A stretch of DNA of 20,052 bases from a virus. Shown one piece after another: positions 1,300-9,370 of the stretch. Each line of letters starts with the position of its first letter. Positions within the stretch are counted from its first letter, which is position 1. The stretch spans positions 1 through 20,052 of the IMG/VR virus record IMGVR_UViG_3300030109_002152. One strand, 5' to 3'. A program made the translations under genes and the position numbers. The notes under the pieces were generated by a model that was given only the letters and a program-made list of their open reading frames with translations, was not told the DNA's origin and ran no database searches.

Positions 1300-1338
1300 T
1301 ATTTATCTATTATACTATGTAAACCAATAAAGGTTCCC
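1300..1338 (-). promoter_or_regulatory. compound early promoter/operator, copy F
   Basis: On the minus strand GGGAAC (1338-1333) begins a weak dyad (AACC...GGTT). TATAAT lies at 1314-1309, at the same distance from GGGAAC as the TATA block in the other copies. An A-rich leader leads to AAAGGAG before the 1282 start. It is the most sigma70-like of the six copies. Confidence 0.7.
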
Positions 1339-1345
1339 AATTATT

Positions 1346-1851
1346 TATTGGAGATTATTATTGTAATGTTCTTACCTATCTCATTTTCCGTTGTTTAACC
1401 TCAATCATACCTCGCCTGTTAATATATACCCTCTTGTAAGTCATATAACCACGCTTACTAATATTACTTATTTTATATCCCTTAGTTTCTCTCCAAGGTT
1501 ATACAAAACTTTCATACTTTCTCGCCGCCCACTTCCGATTGATAACTGAATTTACAAAGTTCAGAAAACTCAAAGCCGTTAATGTAAGTTTATTCAAACC
1601 TCAACGCAATATATTGCTGTGTCTGCTCAACATACTTACAACTCAAACTATCTTTGTATAGTTTTTTATAATCTCCAATTTTTAAATATCTTTTAAAACT
1701 AGTGGGGGCTTCTGAATATAATAGCCATGTAATAAGTCGTAAGATATTCTCATTTTTCGTATCCTACATTTTCTCTTACTACTTACTACCCTGACTAACA
1801 CTCTTTCGCAAAGAGTGGCGACAATATCCACCACCCCCAAGTCTAAATCTT
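1346..1851. other. about 500 bases with no convincing gene; possible decayed coding sequence
   Basis: This stretch lies between the end of the 168-aa gene and the next promoter. No frame has both a plausible start and a ribosome site. On the minus strand, however, there are open stretches that read like protein but are broken by stops: about 57 codons ending near 1587-1589, an in-frame continuation after that stop (TYINGFEFSELCKF), and a 40-codon stretch at 1495-1376 containing WRETKGYKISN and RVYINRRG, which faintly recalls the NUMOD4/HNH homing endonuclease pattern. It could be a decayed gene, an untranslated RNA or chance. A small hairpin lies at its right-hand end. Confidence 0.35.
1799..1817. 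terminator. 8-bp perfect hairpin just past the 168-aa gene
   Basis: CACTCTTT and AAAGAGTG form a perfect 8-bp stem with a CGC loop (GCG on the minus strand), starting about 35 bases past the minus-strand stop at 1852. No T-run follows on the minus strand, so it is not a textbook intrinsic terminator; it may stabilise the 3' end of the transcript. Confidence 0.35.
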
Positions 1852-2358
1852 TTACCAAGGCCTACCTGTGTCAATGGTATACAGCAACTTGCTGTTATCA
1901 TCCCAAGTCCTACCGCCTACGGTCTTGAATGATATAGTCCCATGATTATAACTCATGATAAACTTGTCCTTGAATGTTGCAAGTTTATATCCTCCATTAC
2001 TCGGTAAATTTTTGTTGATGCTATCAACCTTGATGCATCCAATACTACCGCTATCCACATCAATACTACCAACTCTATTACCTGCTGGGCTTTTGATTGG
2101 GTAGCTCCCATCTCCATGTGCGGTGCCATATATACTTATGTTTCTGTTGTCTGCAAGTTTTAGTTTACCTGACAACTGAATTGACTGAATCCAACTTGGG
2201 TAGTCAACACCTTTACTGCCTGAGAATGGGAAAGTTAAATCACATATCTCACCCCACGCATCATTAATTACATAGCATAAGTCTCCAATGTAATATCTAC
2301 CTGCATCCATCATTTCTACTTCTTGCTCTCTATGTTTACTTTTAAATTGTATTTTCAT
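1852..2358 (-). CDS. phage protein of the 'GD-CYVI' type, 168 aa
   Basis: The protein has the pattern YYIGDLCYVI...W, then GTAHGDGSY near residue 79-87, then VDSGSIGCI near residue 101-109. This arrangement (GDxCYV, TAxGDGxY, VDSGxIG) is one I recognise from a widespread group of small beta-rich proteins in phages and bacteria with no established function. The start at 2358 is supported by AAAGGAGCATT immediately upstream; the internal double methionine lacks a ribosome site. It is alone in its unit, driven by compound promoter copy E and followed by the gene-poor stretch at 1346-1851. Family resemblance is from memory of the pattern and not from a search. Confidence 0.75.
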   Translation of the reverse strand: MKIQFKSKHREQEVEMMDAGRYYIGDLCYVINDAWGEICDLTFPFSGSKGVDYPSWIQSIQLSGKLKLADNRNISIYGTAHGDGSYPIKSPAGNRVGSIDVDSGSIGCIKVDSINKNLPSNGGYKLATFKDKFIMSYNHGTISFKTVGGRTWDDNSKLLYTIDTGRPW

Positions 2359-2374
2359 AATGCTCCTTTGTTTT

Positions 2375-2421
2375 GTTATCTGTCCTTTAAATGTGGGAAC
2401 TCAAATAAAGTTCCCACATTT
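2375..2421 (-). promoter_or_regulatory. compound early promoter/operator, copy E, with a perfect 13-bp hairpin
   Basis: GGGAAC (minus strand 2415-2410) lies inside a perfect inverted repeat: 2389-2401 pairs with 2409-2421 around a 7-base loop. The TATA-like block is the weakest of the six copies (CATTTAAA). The leader GATAACAAAACAAAGGAG leads to the 2358 start. The hairpin could also act as the end signal of the unit that stops at 2450, but no T-run follows. Confidence 0.65.
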
Positions 2422-2449
2422 CCACTTAACAAACAACAATTAATTTATT

Positions 2450-2899
2450 CTACCAACTACAAATATAGTAGACTGCTTTGCCACTTTCAAATCTATCTCG
2501 TGCATACTCAATAAATTTTAAGTCCTGCTCTCTGTAATACTTGGCACTGTCCTCCTGTGTTTGATGTCCCCAGAAGAAACCACCATCACAAAAGTAGTCC
2601 ATGTATCCATTGTTTACTGCCTTCTCTAATGAGTCAATGTCCTGTTGTTTCAATCTGATTCTGTTTGTCTTACCAAACTCTATCGGAAACCATTCGTCAT
2701 TGCCTCTGTCATACCATTTGTTTTTGATTCTCTTTCTTTTCATGTAAAGTCTCGTCATAAACTCCTGTAATCGTGCGTGTTTTCTCCACTCAAACGGCCC
2801 TACATTTGTCCATTCGTGAGTGCTTTTCTCTCCTTCTTTGTTTGTAAACTCATACTTATACTCATGTTTTAGTTTACCTGCGTTCTGGTCTAATCCCAT
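2450..2899 (-). CDS. phage protein, MGLDQ...RKH..LQ...GGFFWG family, 149 aa
   Basis: The pattern is MGLDQ at the N-terminus, WRKHARLQEFM in the middle, GGFFWGHQ near residue 106-113 and a C-terminal GKAVYYICSW. I know this arrangement from a common family of phage proteins of unknown function, sometimes mislabelled by automatic annotation as a metabolic kinase; nothing here resembles a kinase. No membrane segment is seen. An AGGAGG ribosome site lies just upstream and the start overlaps the stop of the CxxC protein by one base (TAATG). It is the last gene of the unit starting at compound promoter D. Confidence 0.8.
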   Translation of the reverse strand: MGLDQNAGKLKHEYKYEFTNKEGEKSTHEWTNVGPFEWRKHARLQEFMTRLYMKRKRIKNKWYDRGNDEWFPIEFGKTNRIRLKQQDIDSLEKAVNNGYMDYFCDGGFFWGHQTQEDSAKYYREQDLKFIEYARDRFESGKAVYYICSW

Positions 2900-3126
2900 T
2901 ATATTCCTCCTGTTATTTGTTCCATGTCACTATGCAAGCATAAGACTTGTATCTCGTCTGTGCTACATCCTTCACAAAAATATCTGCTGTCATCAATGTA
3001 GTCTGAGAGTTCATCCGTGTTTATATATGTCCAACTTTGTTGCTGGACCTTATCACTAAAACACTCTTTACAGATATAACTTGCATCATTTTTTTCTGCT
3101 CGTTTTAAGTTTGTTATCTTGTTCAT
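2899..3126 (-). CDS. small protein with two CxxC motifs (zinc-ribbon-like), 75 aa
   Basis: Two cysteine pairs, C19-x-x-C22 and C51-x-x-C54, are spaced as in a zinc ribbon, separated by a stretch with SWTYINTDEL. A single structural zinc is the likely ligand; the target (DNA, RNA or protein) cannot be read from the sequence. The start overlaps the preceding stop (ATGA) and the stop overlaps the next start by one base, so the gene is embedded in a coupled early unit. No catalytic residues are recognised. Confidence 0.75.
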   Translation of the reverse strand: MNKITNLKRAEKNDASYICKECFSDKVQQQSWTYINTDELSDYIDDSRYFCEGCSTDEIQVLCLHSDMEQITGGI

Positions 3127-3332
3127 TGTGTTATCTCTTCCAATTCAACGCTTGAATTTGGTTTTTGTTCCCAATTATTTTTCTCGTCTATTAATTTATT
3201 TAATGACTTCATTGCGTCTGTCAATTCATCATTCATTACATCCGCATCTATAATATATTTTCCCCCTTCATTAATATAATAATAAACTCCTATTTCAATC
3301 TTCATTGGTATTCCGTATTCATCTTTCTTCAT
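3123..3332 (-). CDS. hypothetical protein, 69 aa
   Basis: Unrecognised. The start at 3332 has an AAAGGAG ribosome site about 8 bases upstream, preceded by the AACAAACA leader typical of this arm. The N-terminal half looks beta-rich (KIEIGVYYYINEGGKYIID) and the rest is helical and charged. The stop overlaps the next gene (ATGA). Its upstream gap contains a GGGAAC box directly joined to the leader, as if the middle of a compound promoter had been lost. Confidence 0.65.
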   Translation of the reverse strand: MKKDEYGIPMKIEIGVYYYINEGGKYIIDADVMNDELTDAMKSLNKLIDEKNNWEQKPNSSVELEEITQ

Positions 3333-3339
3333 TGTTTAT

Positions 3340-3364
3340 ACTCCTTTGTTTGTTATTTGTTCCC
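3340..3364 (-). promoter_or_regulatory. shortened compound element: GGGAAC joined directly to the leader
   Basis: On the minus strand GGGAAC (3364-3359) is followed at once by AAATAACAAACAAAGGAG, the leader/ribosome-site part of the compound element, without the dyad's second half or the TATA block. It may be a degraded copy or an operator overlapping a ribosome site. It follows the stop of the upstream gene directly. Confidence 0.4.
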
Positions 3365-3366
3365 AA

Positions 3367-3546
3367 CTATTCGGCCTTGATATAAATTTCTATTTCATCT
3401 GTCAAGTCCATGTGTTCCGCCATGCAATCATCATCAAAAGAATACATCATATTGGAACCAGAATCCATTTCTACTATGCTTATCCTTTTGTTTCCATGTG
3501 TCAGCAATAACACTATCAACTTATTTATTAGCTTTTTTATTTTCAT
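3367..3546 (-). CDS. hypothetical protein, 59 aa
   Basis: Unrecognised. The frame is open to 3573, but I place the start at 3546 (MKIKKL...) because AAACAAAGGAG lies about 10 bases upstream of that ATG, the stop of the preceding gene ends one base before it, and the extra upstream residues would encode the ribosome site itself. The N-terminus has a short hydrophobic stretch (LINKLIVLLL) between lysines, too short for a confident membrane segment, and the C-terminal half is acidic. Confidence 0.6.
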   Translation of the reverse strand: MKIKKLINKLIVLLLTHGNKRISIVEMDSGSNMMYSFDDDCMAEHMDLTDEIEIYIKAE

Positions 3547-3547
3547 A

Positions 3548-3841
3548 TCATTTGCTCTCCTTTGTTTGTTCACTTCTGAGCATGTTATTCATTGACTGAA
3601 CCACATAATATAGCTCTCTCTTTGTCATCCTGTAATAAGTAATCTCTCTTACTCCTCCGCCTTCGTTAACTATTTGTTCTAACTTACAGCCTCCATACGC
3701 TTGGCTAATATGATAGCATCCCACATTAGAGCTATATTTTCCGTCTTCTTTCTTTGTATAGCTTTCTTGTGGCTGTCCTGTGAACTCGTTTAATATGTCC
3801 ACTTGGTTTTGTATGTGTTTAATCGTTATTCTGTTTGTCAT
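3548..3841 (-). CDS. hypothetical phage protein, 97 aa
   Basis: First gene after compound promoter D. The middle reads YHISQAYGGCKLEQIVNEGGG followed, after a gap, by RMTKRELYYVVQSMNNML. I recall a phage family with this AYGG...L...GGG...R..K.EL layout and no known function; the resemblance is from memory. The start at 3841 is preceded by the AACAAACAAAGGA leader, and the ribosome site is about 8 bases from the ATG. The stop is one base from the next start. Confidence 0.7.
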   Translation of the reverse strand: MTNRITIKHIQNQVDILNEFTGQPQESYTKKEDGKYSSNVGCYHISQAYGGCKLEQIVNEGGGVREITYYRMTKRELYYVVQSMNNMLRSEQTKESK

Positions 3842-3863
3842 TTTGTTTGTCCTTTGTTTGTTT

Positions 3864-3902
3864 GTTATACTCTATAAACGCTGGGAACTCGTGAAAGTTC
3901 CC
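3864..3902 (-). promoter_or_regulatory. compound early promoter/operator, copy D
   Basis: Minus strand GGGAACT (3902-3896) and AGTTCCC form a 7-bp dyad. CGTT lies exactly 16 bases after GGAAC, inside CGTTTATAGAGTATAAC, and the AACAAACAAAGGA leader follows. It drives the five-gene unit 3841-2450. Confidence 0.75.
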
Positions 3903-3917
3903 AACTATTTATATTAT

Positions 3918-4346
3918 TTAGTTTCTTTTGTGTTCGTCTTTGTCTTGTCTTACTATCATCTCATCGTAGTTCTTATCATCGTCTCGTGGATTCAGGCTGT
4001 TAAACTCTCCGCTTTCGTATTCTAAGTCCTCGTCATACATGATAAGTTCATTTAATATCCTACTGACCAAAGCTTCCACAGCGTTTCCAAATTGATTTGA
4101 CCTGTTGTAGAATCGTAATGTTTCCTCAAACGCTTGTAAGTTCATGTCTTGTATATTTCCTGTGCTGAATGGGGCGTTCCCAAATTTTTCTTTGGTCTCG
4201 TATTTTCCATCGTGCCAGTCTTTTTCTTTGTCCATTGTCATTCTATAATCACAAAATGTTGACAATTCATTTTTTATCTTTAATAGTAAATGCTCGCTGT
4301 TTGATAATGTAATTTGTTTTCCGTTTGCTAATTTAACTTTTTTCAT
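3918..4346 (-). CDS. hypothetical protein, 142 aa
   Basis: Single-gene unit behind compound promoter C. The start has an AAAGGAG site. The protein is soluble and rich in charged residues, with a likely helical middle (ETLRFYNRSNQFGNAVEALV) and a strongly hydrophilic tail. A weak local resemblance to the 96-aa gene at 992-1282 (KNEL...F..., followed by HD-like charged residues) suggests a common ancestor. No function can be assigned. Confidence 0.7.
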   Translation of the reverse strand: MKKVKLANGKQITLSNSEHLLLKIKNELSTFCDYRMTMDKEKDWHDGKYETKEKFGNAPFSTGNIQDMNLQAFEETLRFYNRSNQFGNAVEALVSRILNELIMYDEDLEYESGEFNSLNPRDDDKNYDEMIVRQDKDEHKRN

Positions 4347-4365
4347 TGTTGCTCCTTTGTTTGTT

Positions 4366-4404
4366 GTTATATCATATAAACGGCGGAAACTCTGAAAAGT
4401 TCCC
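4366..4404 (-). promoter_or_regulatory. compound early promoter/operator, copy C
   Basis: Minus strand GGCGGGAACT and AGTTTCCGCC form a near-perfect dyad (one mismatch). CGTT lies exactly 16 bases after GGAAC, in CGTTTATATGATATAAC, followed by CAACAAACAAAGGAG before the 4346 start. Confidence 0.75.
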
Positions 4405-4416
4405 GCCTTTATATTT

Positions 4417-4704
4417 TTATATATATGTTCCTATGAACTTCTGAGAGTGATTAATATTTACCTCTCTCTTATATTCATCCATTGCCATGGTGATGGCTCT
4501 TTGTCTGTCCCTTGTTAAATATCTGTCGCCCTTCGTCATTGGAAATTTGACTCCGTTCAGCCTTACAATTAATCCATTGTCTTGGCTCAAATATTGTCCT
4601 TGCATGGTGCGGACTTTCTTAATTTTCAGAGCCTGTAATCTTGCTCCGTGTTTTTTATATGCTGTTCTTATTACTTTCTTTTCTTTCTTTGTTAAGTTTG
4701 CCAT
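4417..4704 (-). CDS. hypothetical basic protein, 95 aa
   Basis: I start this gene at 4704 (MANLTKKEKK) because CAGGAGG lies 8 bases upstream. The frame stays open to 4773, but that extra 23-residue stretch is encoded by the promoter B sequence and should not be translated. The protein is rich in lysine and arginine, with TKKEKKVIRTAYKKHG at the N-terminus and GDRYLTRDRQRAITMAMDEYKRE near the C-terminus, so nucleic-acid binding is conceivable, but there is no recognised fold. It is the first leftward gene from the switch region, a common place for a regulator; that is inference. Confidence 0.7.
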   Translation of the reverse strand: MANLTKKEKKVIRTAYKKHGARLQALKIKKVRTMQGQYLSQDNGLIVRLNGVKFPMTKGDRYLTRDRQRAITMAMDEYKREVNINHSQKFIGTYI

Positions 4705-4732
4705 TTTGTGGCCTCCTGTTGTTGTGTTAAAT

Positions 4733-4771
4733 TTCATACTATATATACGGCGTGAATCTTGGAAGGTTCCC
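4733..4771 (-). promoter_or_regulatory. compound early promoter/operator, copy B
   Basis: Minus strand GGGAAC (4771-4766) begins the dyad GAACCTT-CC-AAGATTC. CGTA lies 16 bases after GGAAC and continues as TATATAGTATGAA, a 15-base block (TATATATAGTATGAA) identical to that of copy A on the other strand. It drives the 4704 gene leftwards. Confidence 0.75.
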
Positions 4772-4773
4772 AA

Positions 4774-4999
4774 AATAATTAAATTAATTTATTTCTATGA
4801 CGACAAGATGATGAAATGATACCTACGCCTAATTATAATTAGTTTTTAATGCTAACTTATGACCAAGTGAGAAAACGCCGTGAAGGTACCAAATAAGCCC
4901 AAAAAAGGCCTATCTGTATAACTTGTGGATATGTGTATAACTTGTGTATAACTATTAGCCTGTGGATAACTTGTGGATAACTATTTTTATTATATAAAT
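4774..4999. other. divergent switch region, candidate replication origin
   Basis: No gene fits between the leftward promoter B and the rightward promoter A. The left half is very AT-rich and includes a 14-bp palindrome CTAATTATAATTAG (4829-4842); the right half holds the DnaA-box-like cluster. AT-rich DNA next to clustered DnaA boxes at a strand switch is the usual layout of an origin. Function is inference. Confidence 0.5.
4924..4980. repeat. cluster of DnaA-box-like 9-mers with 11-base spacing
   Basis: Four 9-mers match TGTGNATAA, the complement of the DnaA box TTATNCACA: 4932-4940, 4943-4951, 4961-4969 and 4972-4980. A fifth at 4924-4932 has one mismatch, and a shorter TGTATAAC lies at 4915-4922. 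The boxes come in pairs 11 bases apart, placing neighbours on the same helix face. Confidence 0.7.
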
Positions 5000-5038
5000 G
5001 GGAACTTTTAAAGCCCTATGTCATATATATAGTATGAA
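5000..5038 (+). promoter_or_regulatory. compound early promoter/operator, copy A
   Basis: GGGAAC at 5000-5005 is followed at the standard distance by CATATATATAGTATGAA (from 5022), then by a leader of three CAAA-type repeats and CGGAG before the 5070 start. It is the only copy on the plus strand and starts 20 bases right of the DnaA-box cluster. Confidence 0.75.
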
Positions 5039-5069
5039 TACAAACAAACAAACAAACGGAGTTAAAAAG

Positions 5070-5360
5070 ATGACAAAAAAAGACATGGTAAAAACAATAG
5101 TGGACAGATTCAACAAAATGGATTGGTTCATCAACTACCACCAAGAAAAGGCTAATTATTGGGAAGCTGAGGCTAAACTAATATTAGATAATTCTGACAT
5201 GACATACCAAGAATACGAGGAGAGCCAAGGTATGATGAATTATAAATCTCATTCTTCAATCGTCAGAGAATACAAAAACAAGAAAGATTTATTAAATTCT
5301 CTCTTGGTAGAAATTACTGGTAACTATTACGGAAAGATGGAAAATAAATATAACGACTAA
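5070..5360 (+). CDS. hypothetical helical protein, 96 aa, next to the candidate origin
   Basis: The start is placed at 5070 (MTKKDMVK) because ACGGAG lies 9 bases upstream. The frame is open back to 4998, but that part is the promoter itself. The protein is charged and probably all helical (VDRFNKMDWFINYHQEKANYWEAEAKLIL), with no recognised domain. It is the only gene driven rightwards by a compound promoter and is followed by a terminator, so it forms a one-gene early unit between the DnaA-box cluster and the repeat array. A role in origin function or regulation would fit this place, but the sequence does not show it. Confidence 0.7.
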   Translation: MTKKDMVKTIVDRFNKMDWFINYHQEKANYWEAEAKLILDNSDMTYQEYEESQGMMNYKSHSSIVREYKNKKDLLNSLLVEITGNYYGKMENKYND

Positions 5361-5377
5361 GCAGTCGGTTTTCAACT

Positions 5378-5409
5378 GGGGTTGGGTTTTCAGAATCTCA
5401 ACCCTTTTT
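5378..5409 (+). terminator. intrinsic terminator after the 96-aa gene
   Basis: GGGTTG (5379-5384) pairs with CAACCC (5399-5404) around a 14-base loop and is followed directly by TTTTT (5405-5409). It would end the transcript from promoter A. Confidence 0.65.
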
Positions 5410-5440
5410 GGAATTTCCAACCTCCCGCACGGCGGGGGGG
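5408..5440. repeat. two adjacent hairpins, one very GC-rich
   Basis: TTGGAA/TTCCAA (5408-5420) is followed at once by an 8-bp stem CCTCCCGC (5421-5428) with GCGGGGGG (5432-5439), including one T-G pair, around loop ACG. Such a GC-rich stem stands out in this AT-rich genome. It may be a second terminator barrier or a structural element of the switch region. Confidence 0.5.
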
Positions 5441-5503
5441 TCTCTGCAATAAAAGAAGAACACACATAATCCTAATATTTTTTTGGGAATTTTTTTTCCG
5501 ATA

Positions 5504-5620
5504 GGGTTCCCGAATATTAGGGTCCCTAATATTAGAGGGGGGGTAGGGTTCCCAAATAAGGTTACCCTAATAAGGATACCTTAATAAGGTTTCCTTAATA
5601 GGGTAATACCTTAATAAGCC
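5504..5620. repeat. array of degenerate ~14-base iterons
   Basis: Units of the form GG-N-(T/A)-(A/C)CC-(T/C)-TAATAA follow each other head to tail: 5504-5519, 5520-5535, 5547-5559, 5560-5573, 5574-5587, 5588-5600 and 5601-5617, separated only by a G-rich gap at 5536-5546. Lengths are 13-17 bases, mostly 13-14. Two units contain GGGTTCCC, whose complement carries the GGGAAC core of the early promoters. No gene fits here. Iteron arrays next to an origin usually bind a replication initiator or a repressor. Confidence 0.65.
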
Positions 5621-5763
5621 TTCCAAAAGAGGTCTTTTAAGATAAGACATTTAGAGGGGATAGTCAAGAAATACTTTGTTTACGACACAAATAAATTTAA
5701 TTCTTGTATTTATAAACATATTGTGTATAAATTGTGGATAACTTAATCACAAACGGAGAATCA
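5621..5763 (+). promoter_or_regulatory. leader of the rightward late operon with DnaA-box pair
   Basis: This gap precedes the first right-arm gene. It holds a dyad AAAAGA-GG-TCTTTT (5625-5638), a possible sigma70-like promoter TTGTAT (5704-5709), 16 bases, TATAAA (5726-5731), and two DnaA-box-like 9-mers 11 bases apart (5722-5730 and 5733-5741). The ribosome site is ACGGAGAATCA before 5764. The promoter call is weak. Confidence 0.4.
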
Positions 5764-5997
5764 ATGGCTAAGAAAAAAGAAAAAAATCTAATGACATTAA
5801 ACTATGGTGGGCAAGAATATAAGTTTGAACTTGAATCTTTATCACCTGAAGGAAAAGCTCATTATAACAGAGCTAATGAAGTAGCCGCAGAGTTGTTAAG
5901 ATTTGAACAACAAGTTGCTGAAAAGAAATGGTTGACAGGTAAATACCTTTCTTTTATAGCAGCAGAGTTAGACGATAAAGATAAAGATAAAAAATAA
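5764..5997 (+). CDS. small DUF6447-like phage protein, 77 aa
   Basis: I start at 5764 (MAKKKEKN) because ACGGAG lies 7-8 bases upstream; the frame stays open to 5734, but the upstream part overlaps a DnaA-box-like site. The pattern is a lysine-rich start, then a short beta strand (LNYGGQEYKFELESLSPEGKAHY), then a helix (ANEVAAELLRFEQQVAEKKWLTGKYLSFIAAEL) and an acidic-basic tail. This layout matches the small DUF6447 proteins known from marine cyanophages, whose role is unknown. The stop overlaps the next start (TAATG). The assignment rests on pattern memory. Confidence 0.7.
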   Translation: MAKKKEKNLMTLNYGGQEYKFELESLSPEGKAHYNRANEVAAELLRFEQQVAEKKWLTGKYLSFIAAELDDKDKDKK

Positions 5998-6200
5998 TGG
6001 AGTTAGTAAACGGTTTACAAAAAGCTAAGAAGTTAGTAAAAAGATTAAAAGATTCTGACATACTATCACCCGACCCTTTAGCATTAGAGTGGGTTATTGA
6101 ACTATTTGAAACAATAGAAAAAATAGATACCCCCGAACTAGTAGAAGGAGCTGATATGGCTTTTACCTTTACAGATGATGGCGAAAAAATTAAAGCTTAA
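5997..6200 (+). CDS. hypothetical protein, 67 aa
   Basis: Unrecognised small protein with an amphipathic, lysine-rich N-terminal helix (VNGLQKAKKLVKRLKD) and an acidic second half. The start overlaps the preceding stop by one base and the end overlaps the phosphoesterase start by 26 bases. An internal AGAAGGAG before an in-frame ATG (6156) lies close to the phosphoesterase start and may help ribosomes load on that gene. Confidence 0.65.
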   Translation: MELVNGLQKAKKLVKRLKDSDILSPDPLALEWVIELFETIEKIDTPELVEGADMAFTFTDDGEKIKA

Positions 6201-6951
6201 AAGAGGAATTGTATTTCCAGATATTCATTTTCCTCTTCACGATGAGAAAGCACTGTCCTGTGCATTGCAAGCAGTCAAGATAGTTAAACCAGATATTTAC
6301 ATTAACATTGGTGATGTAGGTGAATGGCATAACTTTTCTGCCTGGAAGTACAAAGGAAAGAAACTTCCTTCTTTAGAATACCAAATACCATATTGTGAAC
6401 AAGACATTGCTGATGTCAATGCAGGTTTAGATATGATAGATGATGTTATGTCTAAAGAAAAAGTAAAAGAAAAGTATATGTTGCAAGGTAATCATGAGTT
6501 GTGGATGGACAACTTTGTAGAAAAATATCCTTATATGTCTGATTATACTTTTCCTAAAGCATGTTATTTAAAAGAACGAGGGTACAAATATTATGAATAC
6601 AACCTTCCATTAAAGATAGGGAAGATAAATTTTATACACGGTACCTACGCAACTACTTACCATGCTAAAAAACATCTTGAAACATACGGAGCCAATATCA
6701 TGTATGGACATACTCACGATGTTCAACGACATACTTTAACTAAATTAGACGCAGGAACCATTGGAGCTTGGGGAATAGGATGTCTTAAAGATATGTCAAG
6801 AGATAAAAACAAGTGGTTGCGTGGCCGCTTACATAATTGGAATCATGCTTTCAGCATTATTACTTGGTTTCCTAATGGCAACTTTCAAGTTGAAGTAATT
6901 GAAATTGTTAATGGGAAGTGTATCGTATGGGGTAATGTTGTTGAAGGCTAA
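6175..6951 (+). CDS. calcineurin-like metallophosphoesterase, 258 aa
   Basis: The complete set of metal-binding motifs of the calcineurin-like phosphoesterase superfamily is present: D16-x-H18 (PDIHFP), GD47VGE, GN106H107E, H155 (FIHG) and GH179TH181. These residues hold two metal ions and hydrolyse a phosphoester; the family covers protein phosphatases, nucleases and nucleotide hydrolases, and substrate cannot be read here. There is no signal peptide or membrane segment. The gene sits directly before the terminase genes and overlaps its neighbours on both sides, so it is expressed with the packaging genes. That placement occurs in other phages and suggests a job in DNA processing or late regulation, which is inference. 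Two tandem ATGs (6175, 6178) make the exact start uncertain by one residue. Confidence 0.9.
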   Translation: MMAKKLKLKRGIVFPDIHFPLHDEKALSCALQAVKIVKPDIYINIGDVGEWHNFSAWKYKGKKLPSLEYQIPYCEQDIADVNAGLDMIDDVMSKEKVKEKYMLQGNHELWMDNFVEKYPYMSDYTFPKACYLKERGYKYYEYNLPLKIGKINFIHGTYATTYHAKKHLETYGANIMYGHTHDVQRHTLTKLDAGTIGAWGIGCLKDMSRDKNKWLRGRLHNWNHAFSIITWFPNGNFQVEVIEIVNGKCIVWGNVVEG

Positions 6952-9264: not shown

Positions 9265-9370
9265 AAAGTTTTCCACATGTTATCCACATTTTGCTTGCAT
9301 TTATAGAGGGTAAAGAGTTAAATTCAACTACGAAATACTGTATCGTTTTTTACAACAATAGGGCCATTGA
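9265..9370 (+). promoter_or_regulatory. gap before portal with DnaA-box-like pair
   Basis: TTTTCCACA (9269-9277, one mismatch to the DnaA box) and TTATCCACA (9280-9288, exact) lie 11 bases apart, the same spacing as in the switch region but in the opposite orientation. No clear hairpin terminator is seen. A promoter for the head genes could lie here, but I see no convincing -35/-10 pair. Confidence 0.45.

Follow-up and report, generated by a model that had tools for sequence, protein, structure and literature searches.

The non-structural arm of this phage raises the question of which factor its promoters are built for. The window, by which we mean the whole analysed stretch of DNA (the 20,052-bp viral record IMGVR_UViG_3300030109_002152), has two arms: in the left one, small non-structural genes are read leftward from about 5 kb, and the structural genes, those for terminase, portal and capsid among them, are read rightward. 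The gene content of the non-structural arm (recombination and nuclease genes, small ORFs) suggests that it is probably early. A sequence-only reading had described six copies of a compound GGGAAC element in this arm and offered two explanations: an ECF-type promoter served by a sigma factor of the host or of the phage, or an operator placed over a sigma70 −10. GGAAC-N16/17-CGTT is the promoter form of ECF sigma factors, including EcfG of Alphaproteobacteria. From the sequence evidence set out below, we consider it probable that ECF-type promoters, read by the host polymerase with a host ECF sigma factor, drive the non-structural region.

Putative promoter sites in the window and its relatives

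A check of the sequence found all six GGGAAC sites at the positions and on the strands originally assigned to them (Table 1; sites are named by position and strand). With GGGAAC as columns 1–6, column 25 is T and column 28 is A in six of six, which confirms the fixed distance to a TATA-like block. CGTT stands exactly 16 nt after GGAAC at 3902− and 4404−, as does CGTA at 4771−, both as previously noted; the tetramers in this position at the remaining three sites are AGTA (1338−), CATT (2415−) and CATA (5000+). The A/C-rich leader ending in AGGAG can likewise be seen, apart from minor deviations (AAGGAC after 3902−, CGGAG after 5000+). A close relative, L170, in which one left-arm protein is 97% identical, retains all six sites; its counterpart of 4771− reads CAGT instead of CCGT, with the G and T retained.

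For SIGNIFICANCE, relatives were gathered via the terminase, and seven of them were read almost whole. A held-out matrix was derived from seven related genomes, the window being excluded from training. The matrix scan returned exactly eight matches in the window, namely the six known sites and two overlooked ones, 3364− and 3172−. Their scores range from 14.9 (2415−) to 38.1, compared with a top score of 15.0 in any shuffle and a mean of 0.04 above-cut-off matches in 200 dinucleotide shuffles. With both strands of the 20 kb covered, all matches fall at 1.3–5.0 kb, in agreement with the earlier statement that right-arm units lack the site. The companion statement, that a site stands at the start of each left-arm unit, is correct once 3364− and 3172− are included, with the reservation that 3364−, which lies over the ribosome-binding site and start codon of the next gene, is perhaps no ordinary promoter. 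We regard such a role for 3364− as doubtful; its arrangement is found at two places in L170.

Table 1. Putative promoter sites and associated elements in the window
Feature	Coordinates	Strand	Elements	Context	Score and conservation
Putative ECF-type site 1	1304..1338	−	GGGAAC 1338–1333, AGT 1316–1314, inferred +1 at 1304	upstream of genes 992–1282 and beyond	held-out score 37.6; conserved in L170
Putative ECF-type site 2	2381..2415	−	GGGAAC, CAT at −10 position; weakest of set	upstream of gene 1852–2358	held-out score 14.9; L170 core identical
Putative ECF-type site 3	3868..3902	−	GGGAAC-N16-CGTT	upstream of gene 3548–3841	score 38.1; conserved in L170
Putative ECF-type site 4	4370..4404	−	GGGAAC-N16-CGTT	upstream of gene 3918–4346	score 24.9; conserved in L170
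Putative ECF-type site 5	4737..4771	−	GGGAAC-N16-CGTA	upstream of gene 4417–4704	held-out score 21.1
Putative ECF-type site 6	5000..5034	+	GGGAAC-N16-CATA	upstream of rightward gene from about 5070	score 33.3; conserved in L170
Overlooked site 3172−	3138..3172	−	GGGAAC-N16-CGTT	within 3′ end of gene 3123–3332; upstream of genes 2899–3126 and 2450–2899	held-out score 29.1
Overlooked site 3364−	3330..3364	−	GGGAAC-N16-AGTA	over ribosome-binding site and start of gene 3123–3332	score 21.1
Inverted repeat over site 2	2389..2421	.	13-bp perfect arms		
Inverted repeat over site 3	3882..3903	.	8-bp arms		
Inverted repeat over site 4	4382..4407	.	one G-T pair		
Sigma70-form contrast site	9294..9324	+	CTTGCAT-N17-TTAAAT	before portal gene	conserved in relatives

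A refined matrix of 54 nt, trained on eight genomes, found 75 sites in these eight genomes and none in reversed genomes; many records are fragments and sites in relatives share ancestry, so these counts are not independent events. Of the 75 sites, 70 precede a Shine–Dalgarno (SD) sequence and a start codon, at a median of 29 nt from column 35. When 12 related genomes were checked, the window excluded, each carried between 3 and 13 sites above the cut-off, and five of these carriers (G017, G019, G020, G022 and G024) had played no part in matrix building. Six sister genomes, with terminases 65–32% identical to that of the window, had zero sites above the cut-off. In the sister G025 (terminase 65%), TTGACA is enriched upstream of genes, and several TTGACA-N16-18-TAnnnT combinations occur. 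Sister clades with common structural genes thus use promoters of different classes. The sister clades may infect other hosts. Queries with early genes added few relatives. Among 50,697 phage records, the portal, the exonuclease and two other proteins had no match, and the terminase and capsid had matches below 30% identity only.

Some right-arm units of the carriers contain another conserved site, TTGCAT-N17-TTAAAT. The CTTGCAT-N17-TTAAAT element before the portal gene recurs in G002 (8898, 29176) and G003 (6207, 31075), and it is a promoter class distinct from the left-arm GGGAAC sites. These sites bear on the proposal that the primary sigma factor of the host itself prefers GGAAC-N16-[CA]GT, which would turn the left-arm sites into housekeeping promoters. 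Our searches did not identify the host, which leaves room for such a preference. We nevertheless regard it as highly improbable, since the same phages carry TTGCAT-N17-TTAAAT, an ordinary sigma70 form, in their structural arm, and a sister phage carries TTGACA-N17-TAnnnT, also of ordinary sigma70 form, with the proviso that the host of the sister may differ. When the window was scanned for generic sigma70 promoters, matches were no more numerous than in shuffles, Rfam gave zero matches in the window, and no tRNA genes were found in the scanned relatives or in window positions 3244–6271.

Anatomy of the element

The spacing was assessed on 127 de-duplicated sites, chosen by [GT]GGAAC with an A/T-rich upstream stretch and unconditioned downstream, which avoids circularity. 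[CA]GT[ATG] lies exactly N16 after AAC in 64 of the 127, compared with 28 at distance 25, 13 at distance 22 and 0–8 at others; CGT occurs at N16 29 times versus 0–6 times at other distances. The distance-25 peak corresponds to a second block, TAGTATG in columns 31–37, which includes an initiator-like T34-A35 pair at the expected transcription start. In a set restricted to GGGAAC (n = 57), G24 (1.25 bits) and T25 (1.07 bits) exceed all other downstream columns in information; T occupies column 30, the position of the sigma70 −7T, in 10 of 57, and A occupies column 26 in 36 of 57. The sites thus lack the conserved A−11 and T−7 of a sigma70 −10. Across 17 orthologous site pairs, a small sample, columns 2–6, 25 and 34 are unchanged throughout.

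Among 165 distinct matrix matches, the −35 reads GGGAAC in 96, TGGAAC in 59, CGGAAC in 5, TGAAAC in 4 and AGGAAC in 1; the invariance of AAC in this set partly reflects selection, since the matrix favours AAC. The −10 reads AGTA (55), CGTA (34), AGTT (17), CATA (15), CGTG (13), CGTT (8) or rarer forms, and a few sites are TGAAAC-N16-CGTA (a TGAAAC example is G003 20648−). The dominance of AGTA and CGTA, with CGTT in 8 of 165, speaks against the suggested EcfG form GGAAC-N16-CGTT, and EcfG proper was discarded on its −10; nor does anything point to an alphaproteobacterial host. ECF-type promoters in general combine a GGAAC or TGAAAC −35, in which AAC is invariant, with a CGT or GT −10 at a fixed distance of 16–17 nt, and the phage sites agree with this in their −35 and in the exact N16 of 64 of the 127 sites. 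The ECF-type reading is favoured by the strict N16, by GT in columns 24–25 as the strongest downstream feature and by the absence of the sigma70 −7T in the relatives. Against it stand TATAA at columns 25–29 and the unusual use of an alternative sigma factor for early genes.

The consensus TATAA in columns 25–29 agrees with a sigma70 −10 at five of six positions, and it keeps an activator model in play. In that model, a phage activator, MotA-like in principle, would bind GGAAC in the −35 region and recruit the primary-sigma polymerase of the host to the TATAA-like −10. The details of the element argue otherwise: G24 lies outside a sigma70 −10, the −7T is missing, and an ECF sigma factor alone accounts for the fixed N16 to [CA]GT. 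We consider the activator model unlikely, also in view of the distribution of its candidate protein described below.

An inverted repeat, GGGAAC…GTTCCC or GTTTCC, went unmentioned in the sequence-only reading; it occurs in three of the six sites (2415−, 3902− and 4404−), and a few relatives have it too. Stems of at least 8 are present in 7 of 165 sites, compared with 0.06 expected from shuffled spacers and 2.6 from spacers swapped between sites, and the excess over swapped spacers indicates that the outer arms covary. Stems of at least 6 are present in 8 of 165, and the sites as a set do not show the palindrome of an operator. The perfect or near-perfect repeats and their excess over shuffled spacers would suit a repressor dimer on GGGAAC-N8/9-GTTCCC that covers the −35 and the spacer in sigma70 promoters. 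As the core of the system, such an operator is very unlikely: the repeat is found in about 4% of sites, whereas all sites retain GGAAC and the N16 spacing; the arm-to-arm gap varies by one; and the outer arms differ between sites yet remain complementary, as in a hairpin and unlike a fixed operator. An operator as core element was rejected because the repeat is too rare. The inverted repeat is a real accessory of this minority of sites, not the core that defines the regulon. Since it precedes the inferred +1, its folding would be confined to RNA from read-through; alternatively, a protein could bind it on the DNA.

The search for the reading factor and the host

Six-frame searches of the phage records with the sigma domain models r2, r4 and r4_2 gave no match at E up to 1. 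The models do detect sigma factors in control genomes; r4_2 was applied to the first record set only. G002, G019 and G024, whose terminal direct repeats measure 87, 127 and 141 bp, are probably complete genomes, and they too gave no sigma domain. The earlier suggestion of a phage-own sigma factor thus found no support in any record. ECF promoters commonly occur in the same genome as the gene of their cognate sigma factor, which is often autoregulated; no such gene turned up in the phage records.

Sigma factors of lytic phages can be quite divergent from bacterial ones (PMC9429907), and many small ORFs here are without an assigned function. A diverged phage sigma factor or a virion-carried factor invisible to Pfam models would therefore be conceivable. 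We hold it to be quite unlikely, given the zero matches at E up to 1 and the family distribution: blastp clustering yielded only two families present in 12 of 12 carriers and 0 of 6 non-carriers, a Cas4-like exonuclease and a probably SSB-like protein of 89 aa, while the structural families common to all carriers are mostly found in non-carriers too. No regulator-like family across all 12 carriers emerged from this clustering, which a small, fast-evolving factor could escape.

This last result also weighs against the activator model. Its candidate, HTH_39, was the only winged-helix protein found; this protein, whose structural model weakly resembles winged-helix regulators, occurs in one subclade (five genomes plus L170 and L171), and in relatives its gene adjoins the exonuclease gene, just past the left end of the window. 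It was not detected in G010 and G012, two carriers with the same promoter. The predicted structure of the first left-arm protein (pLDDT 50) was too poor for use. The lack of a detectable phage sigma factor and of a regulator family common to the carriers, together with the failure to detect HTH_39 in G010 and G012, favours a host factor. Of the initial interpretation, a single left-arm regulon promoter with ECF geometry is supported, and the phage sigma factor and the EcfG form are not. The sequences themselves show the sites, their strict geometry and their confinement to this phage clade and to its non-structural arm. Within the ECF-type reading we infer an ECF sigma factor as reader, the host as its supplier, early timing of the arm and a +1 at the conserved A of column 35.

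The host was sought via the terminase and a widespread secreted phage protein, neither of which gave a match in 84,980 bacterial and archaeal genomes. Bacteroidetes proteins carry Q after the signal peptide (PMC5837995), a feature seen in the secreted phage proteins. SD sequences precede 36 of 54 ORFs in G002, compared with 10 at a control position. Such strong SD use is atypical of Bacteroidetes; it speaks against the assignment that the Q feature fits, and we do not claim a host.

Proposed mechanism and comparison with known systems

We propose the following hypothetical scheme, in which (i) each promoter would consist of an A/T-rich, UP-like stretch, a −35 [G/T]GGAAC, 16 nt and a −10 [C/A]GT followed by ATAAG, with a T-A initiator about 10 nt past the −10 and then a short AGGAG leader; (ii) the host polymerase with a host ECF sigma factor would bind GGAAC and [CA]GT, N16 apart, aided by the A/T-rich stretch; (iii) transcription would start at the A of the T-A step, and each unit would have its own ribosome-binding site; and (iv) the structural arm would be served by other promoters. 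One may speculate that infection itself activates the sigma factor, in the manner of envelope stress. More tentatively than the promoter assignment, we suggest that in this widespread clade of uncultured marine phages the whole non-structural regulon, with about 3–13 sites per genome, may be under a host ECF stress sigma factor in place of the primary one; the envelope stress that infection brings about would then itself turn on the early genes. Phage early genes are normally under the primary sigma factor of the host and hence on in any cell. If our proposal is true, infection would be tied to a host stress sigma factor, and its success would hinge on how far the envelope of the cell is under stress. 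The sister phages with ordinary promoters offer a natural comparison, and the motif itself is a route to the name of the host, which would be a marine bacterium with an ECF sigma gene preceded by [GT]GGAAC-N16-[CA]GTA.

In the open-access literature, we found no report of a phage clade with ECF-type promoters for non-structural genes and without a phage sigma factor. EcfG promoters, GGAAC-N16-CGTT with a near-invariant AAC and a flexible −10 (PMC7083833), share with the phage sites the −35 GGAAC, the near-invariant AAC, the N16 and the flexibility of the −10. In contrast, the −10 is here mostly AGTA or CGTA (CGTT in 8 of 165), and the regulon belongs to a phage. The phages phiEco32 and 7-11 use their own sigma factor for middle and late genes, with the consensus TAATGTATA; their resemblance to the present phages lies in a lytic lifestyle, in the separation of structural from functional genes into opposite arms and in the possession of a special class of promoter (PMC4331800). 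They differ in encoding the sigma factor, none being found here, and in their motif. Bacillus promoters of the sigW/sigM type, TGAAAC-N16-CGTA/CGTC, have the same spacing and a CGTA −10, and TGAAAC recurs in a minority of phage sites; however, GGGAAC and TGGAAC dominate here, and AGT is as common as CGT. T4 middle promoters combine a MotA box with a sigma70 −10, so that, as here, the −35 is replaced by a box at a fixed distance from a TATA-like −10, whereas our phages yielded no conserved activator gene and have [CA]GT, not TATAAT, as their downstream element. PeSLs, the mobile early promoter and stem-loop cassettes of T4-type phages, are similar in that the promoter recurs and some of its copies come with a stem-loop; in the phages described here, about 4% of copies have the stem-loop, which overlaps the promoter.

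A candidate origin and neighbouring repeats

DnaA-box-like sequences are clustered between the two arms, and we consider this cluster a likely origin; over the whole window, 17 matches to TTATCCACA with at most one mismatch were observed against 6.8 expected. The same kind of cluster lies ahead of a GGGAAC site (putative ECF-type promoter) directed toward it in the related phage genomes G002, G003 and G007. The block of CCTAATAAGG/TAAGGTTACCCTAATA repeats contains 22-bp inverted arms (5562-5606), and similar sequence is found in G002 at about 5060-5220.

Coordinates of the features described
Feature	Genome	Position
DnaA-box-like sequences	window	4924-4980, 5722-5741, 9269-9288
Dense CCTAATAAGG/TAAGGTTACCCTAATA-type repeats	window	5500-5620
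Inferred +1 as A of in-frame ATG	window	5000-5070 (+), 4771-4704 (-)
CTTGCATT-ATAGAGG-TAAAG-GTTAAATT	window	9294-9324
	G002	8898, 29176
	G003	6207, 31075
Secreted 363-aa protein	L086	5640-6731

Possible start codons at the inferred +1

Because the inferred +1 of the ECF-type promoter sites 5000+ and 4771- is the A of an ATG in frame with the downstream gene, their transcripts could be translated leaderless, which would add an N-terminal extension to the gene product. For two sites in relatives, G002 43996- and G003 21430-, the inferred +1 coincides with the gene's actual start codon.

A conserved secreted protein

The highly conserved secreted protein of viral contig L086 (sequence QDFFKFSTIYGAYS...) had no match among 50,697 phage records or among 84,980 host genomes; at least 100 marine viral contigs carry it, including phages with distant terminases.

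Probable promoter elements of the structural arm and a sister phage

The conserved CTTGCATT-ATAGAGG-TAAAG-GTTAAATT element precedes the portal gene and also a second structural gene, and is probably a late promoter. In the sister phage G025 (L253-L255), CTTGACA-N17-TAnnnT sites sharing the spacer TTGTTTTAG lie upstream of genes and are read as this phage's own repeated promoter family.
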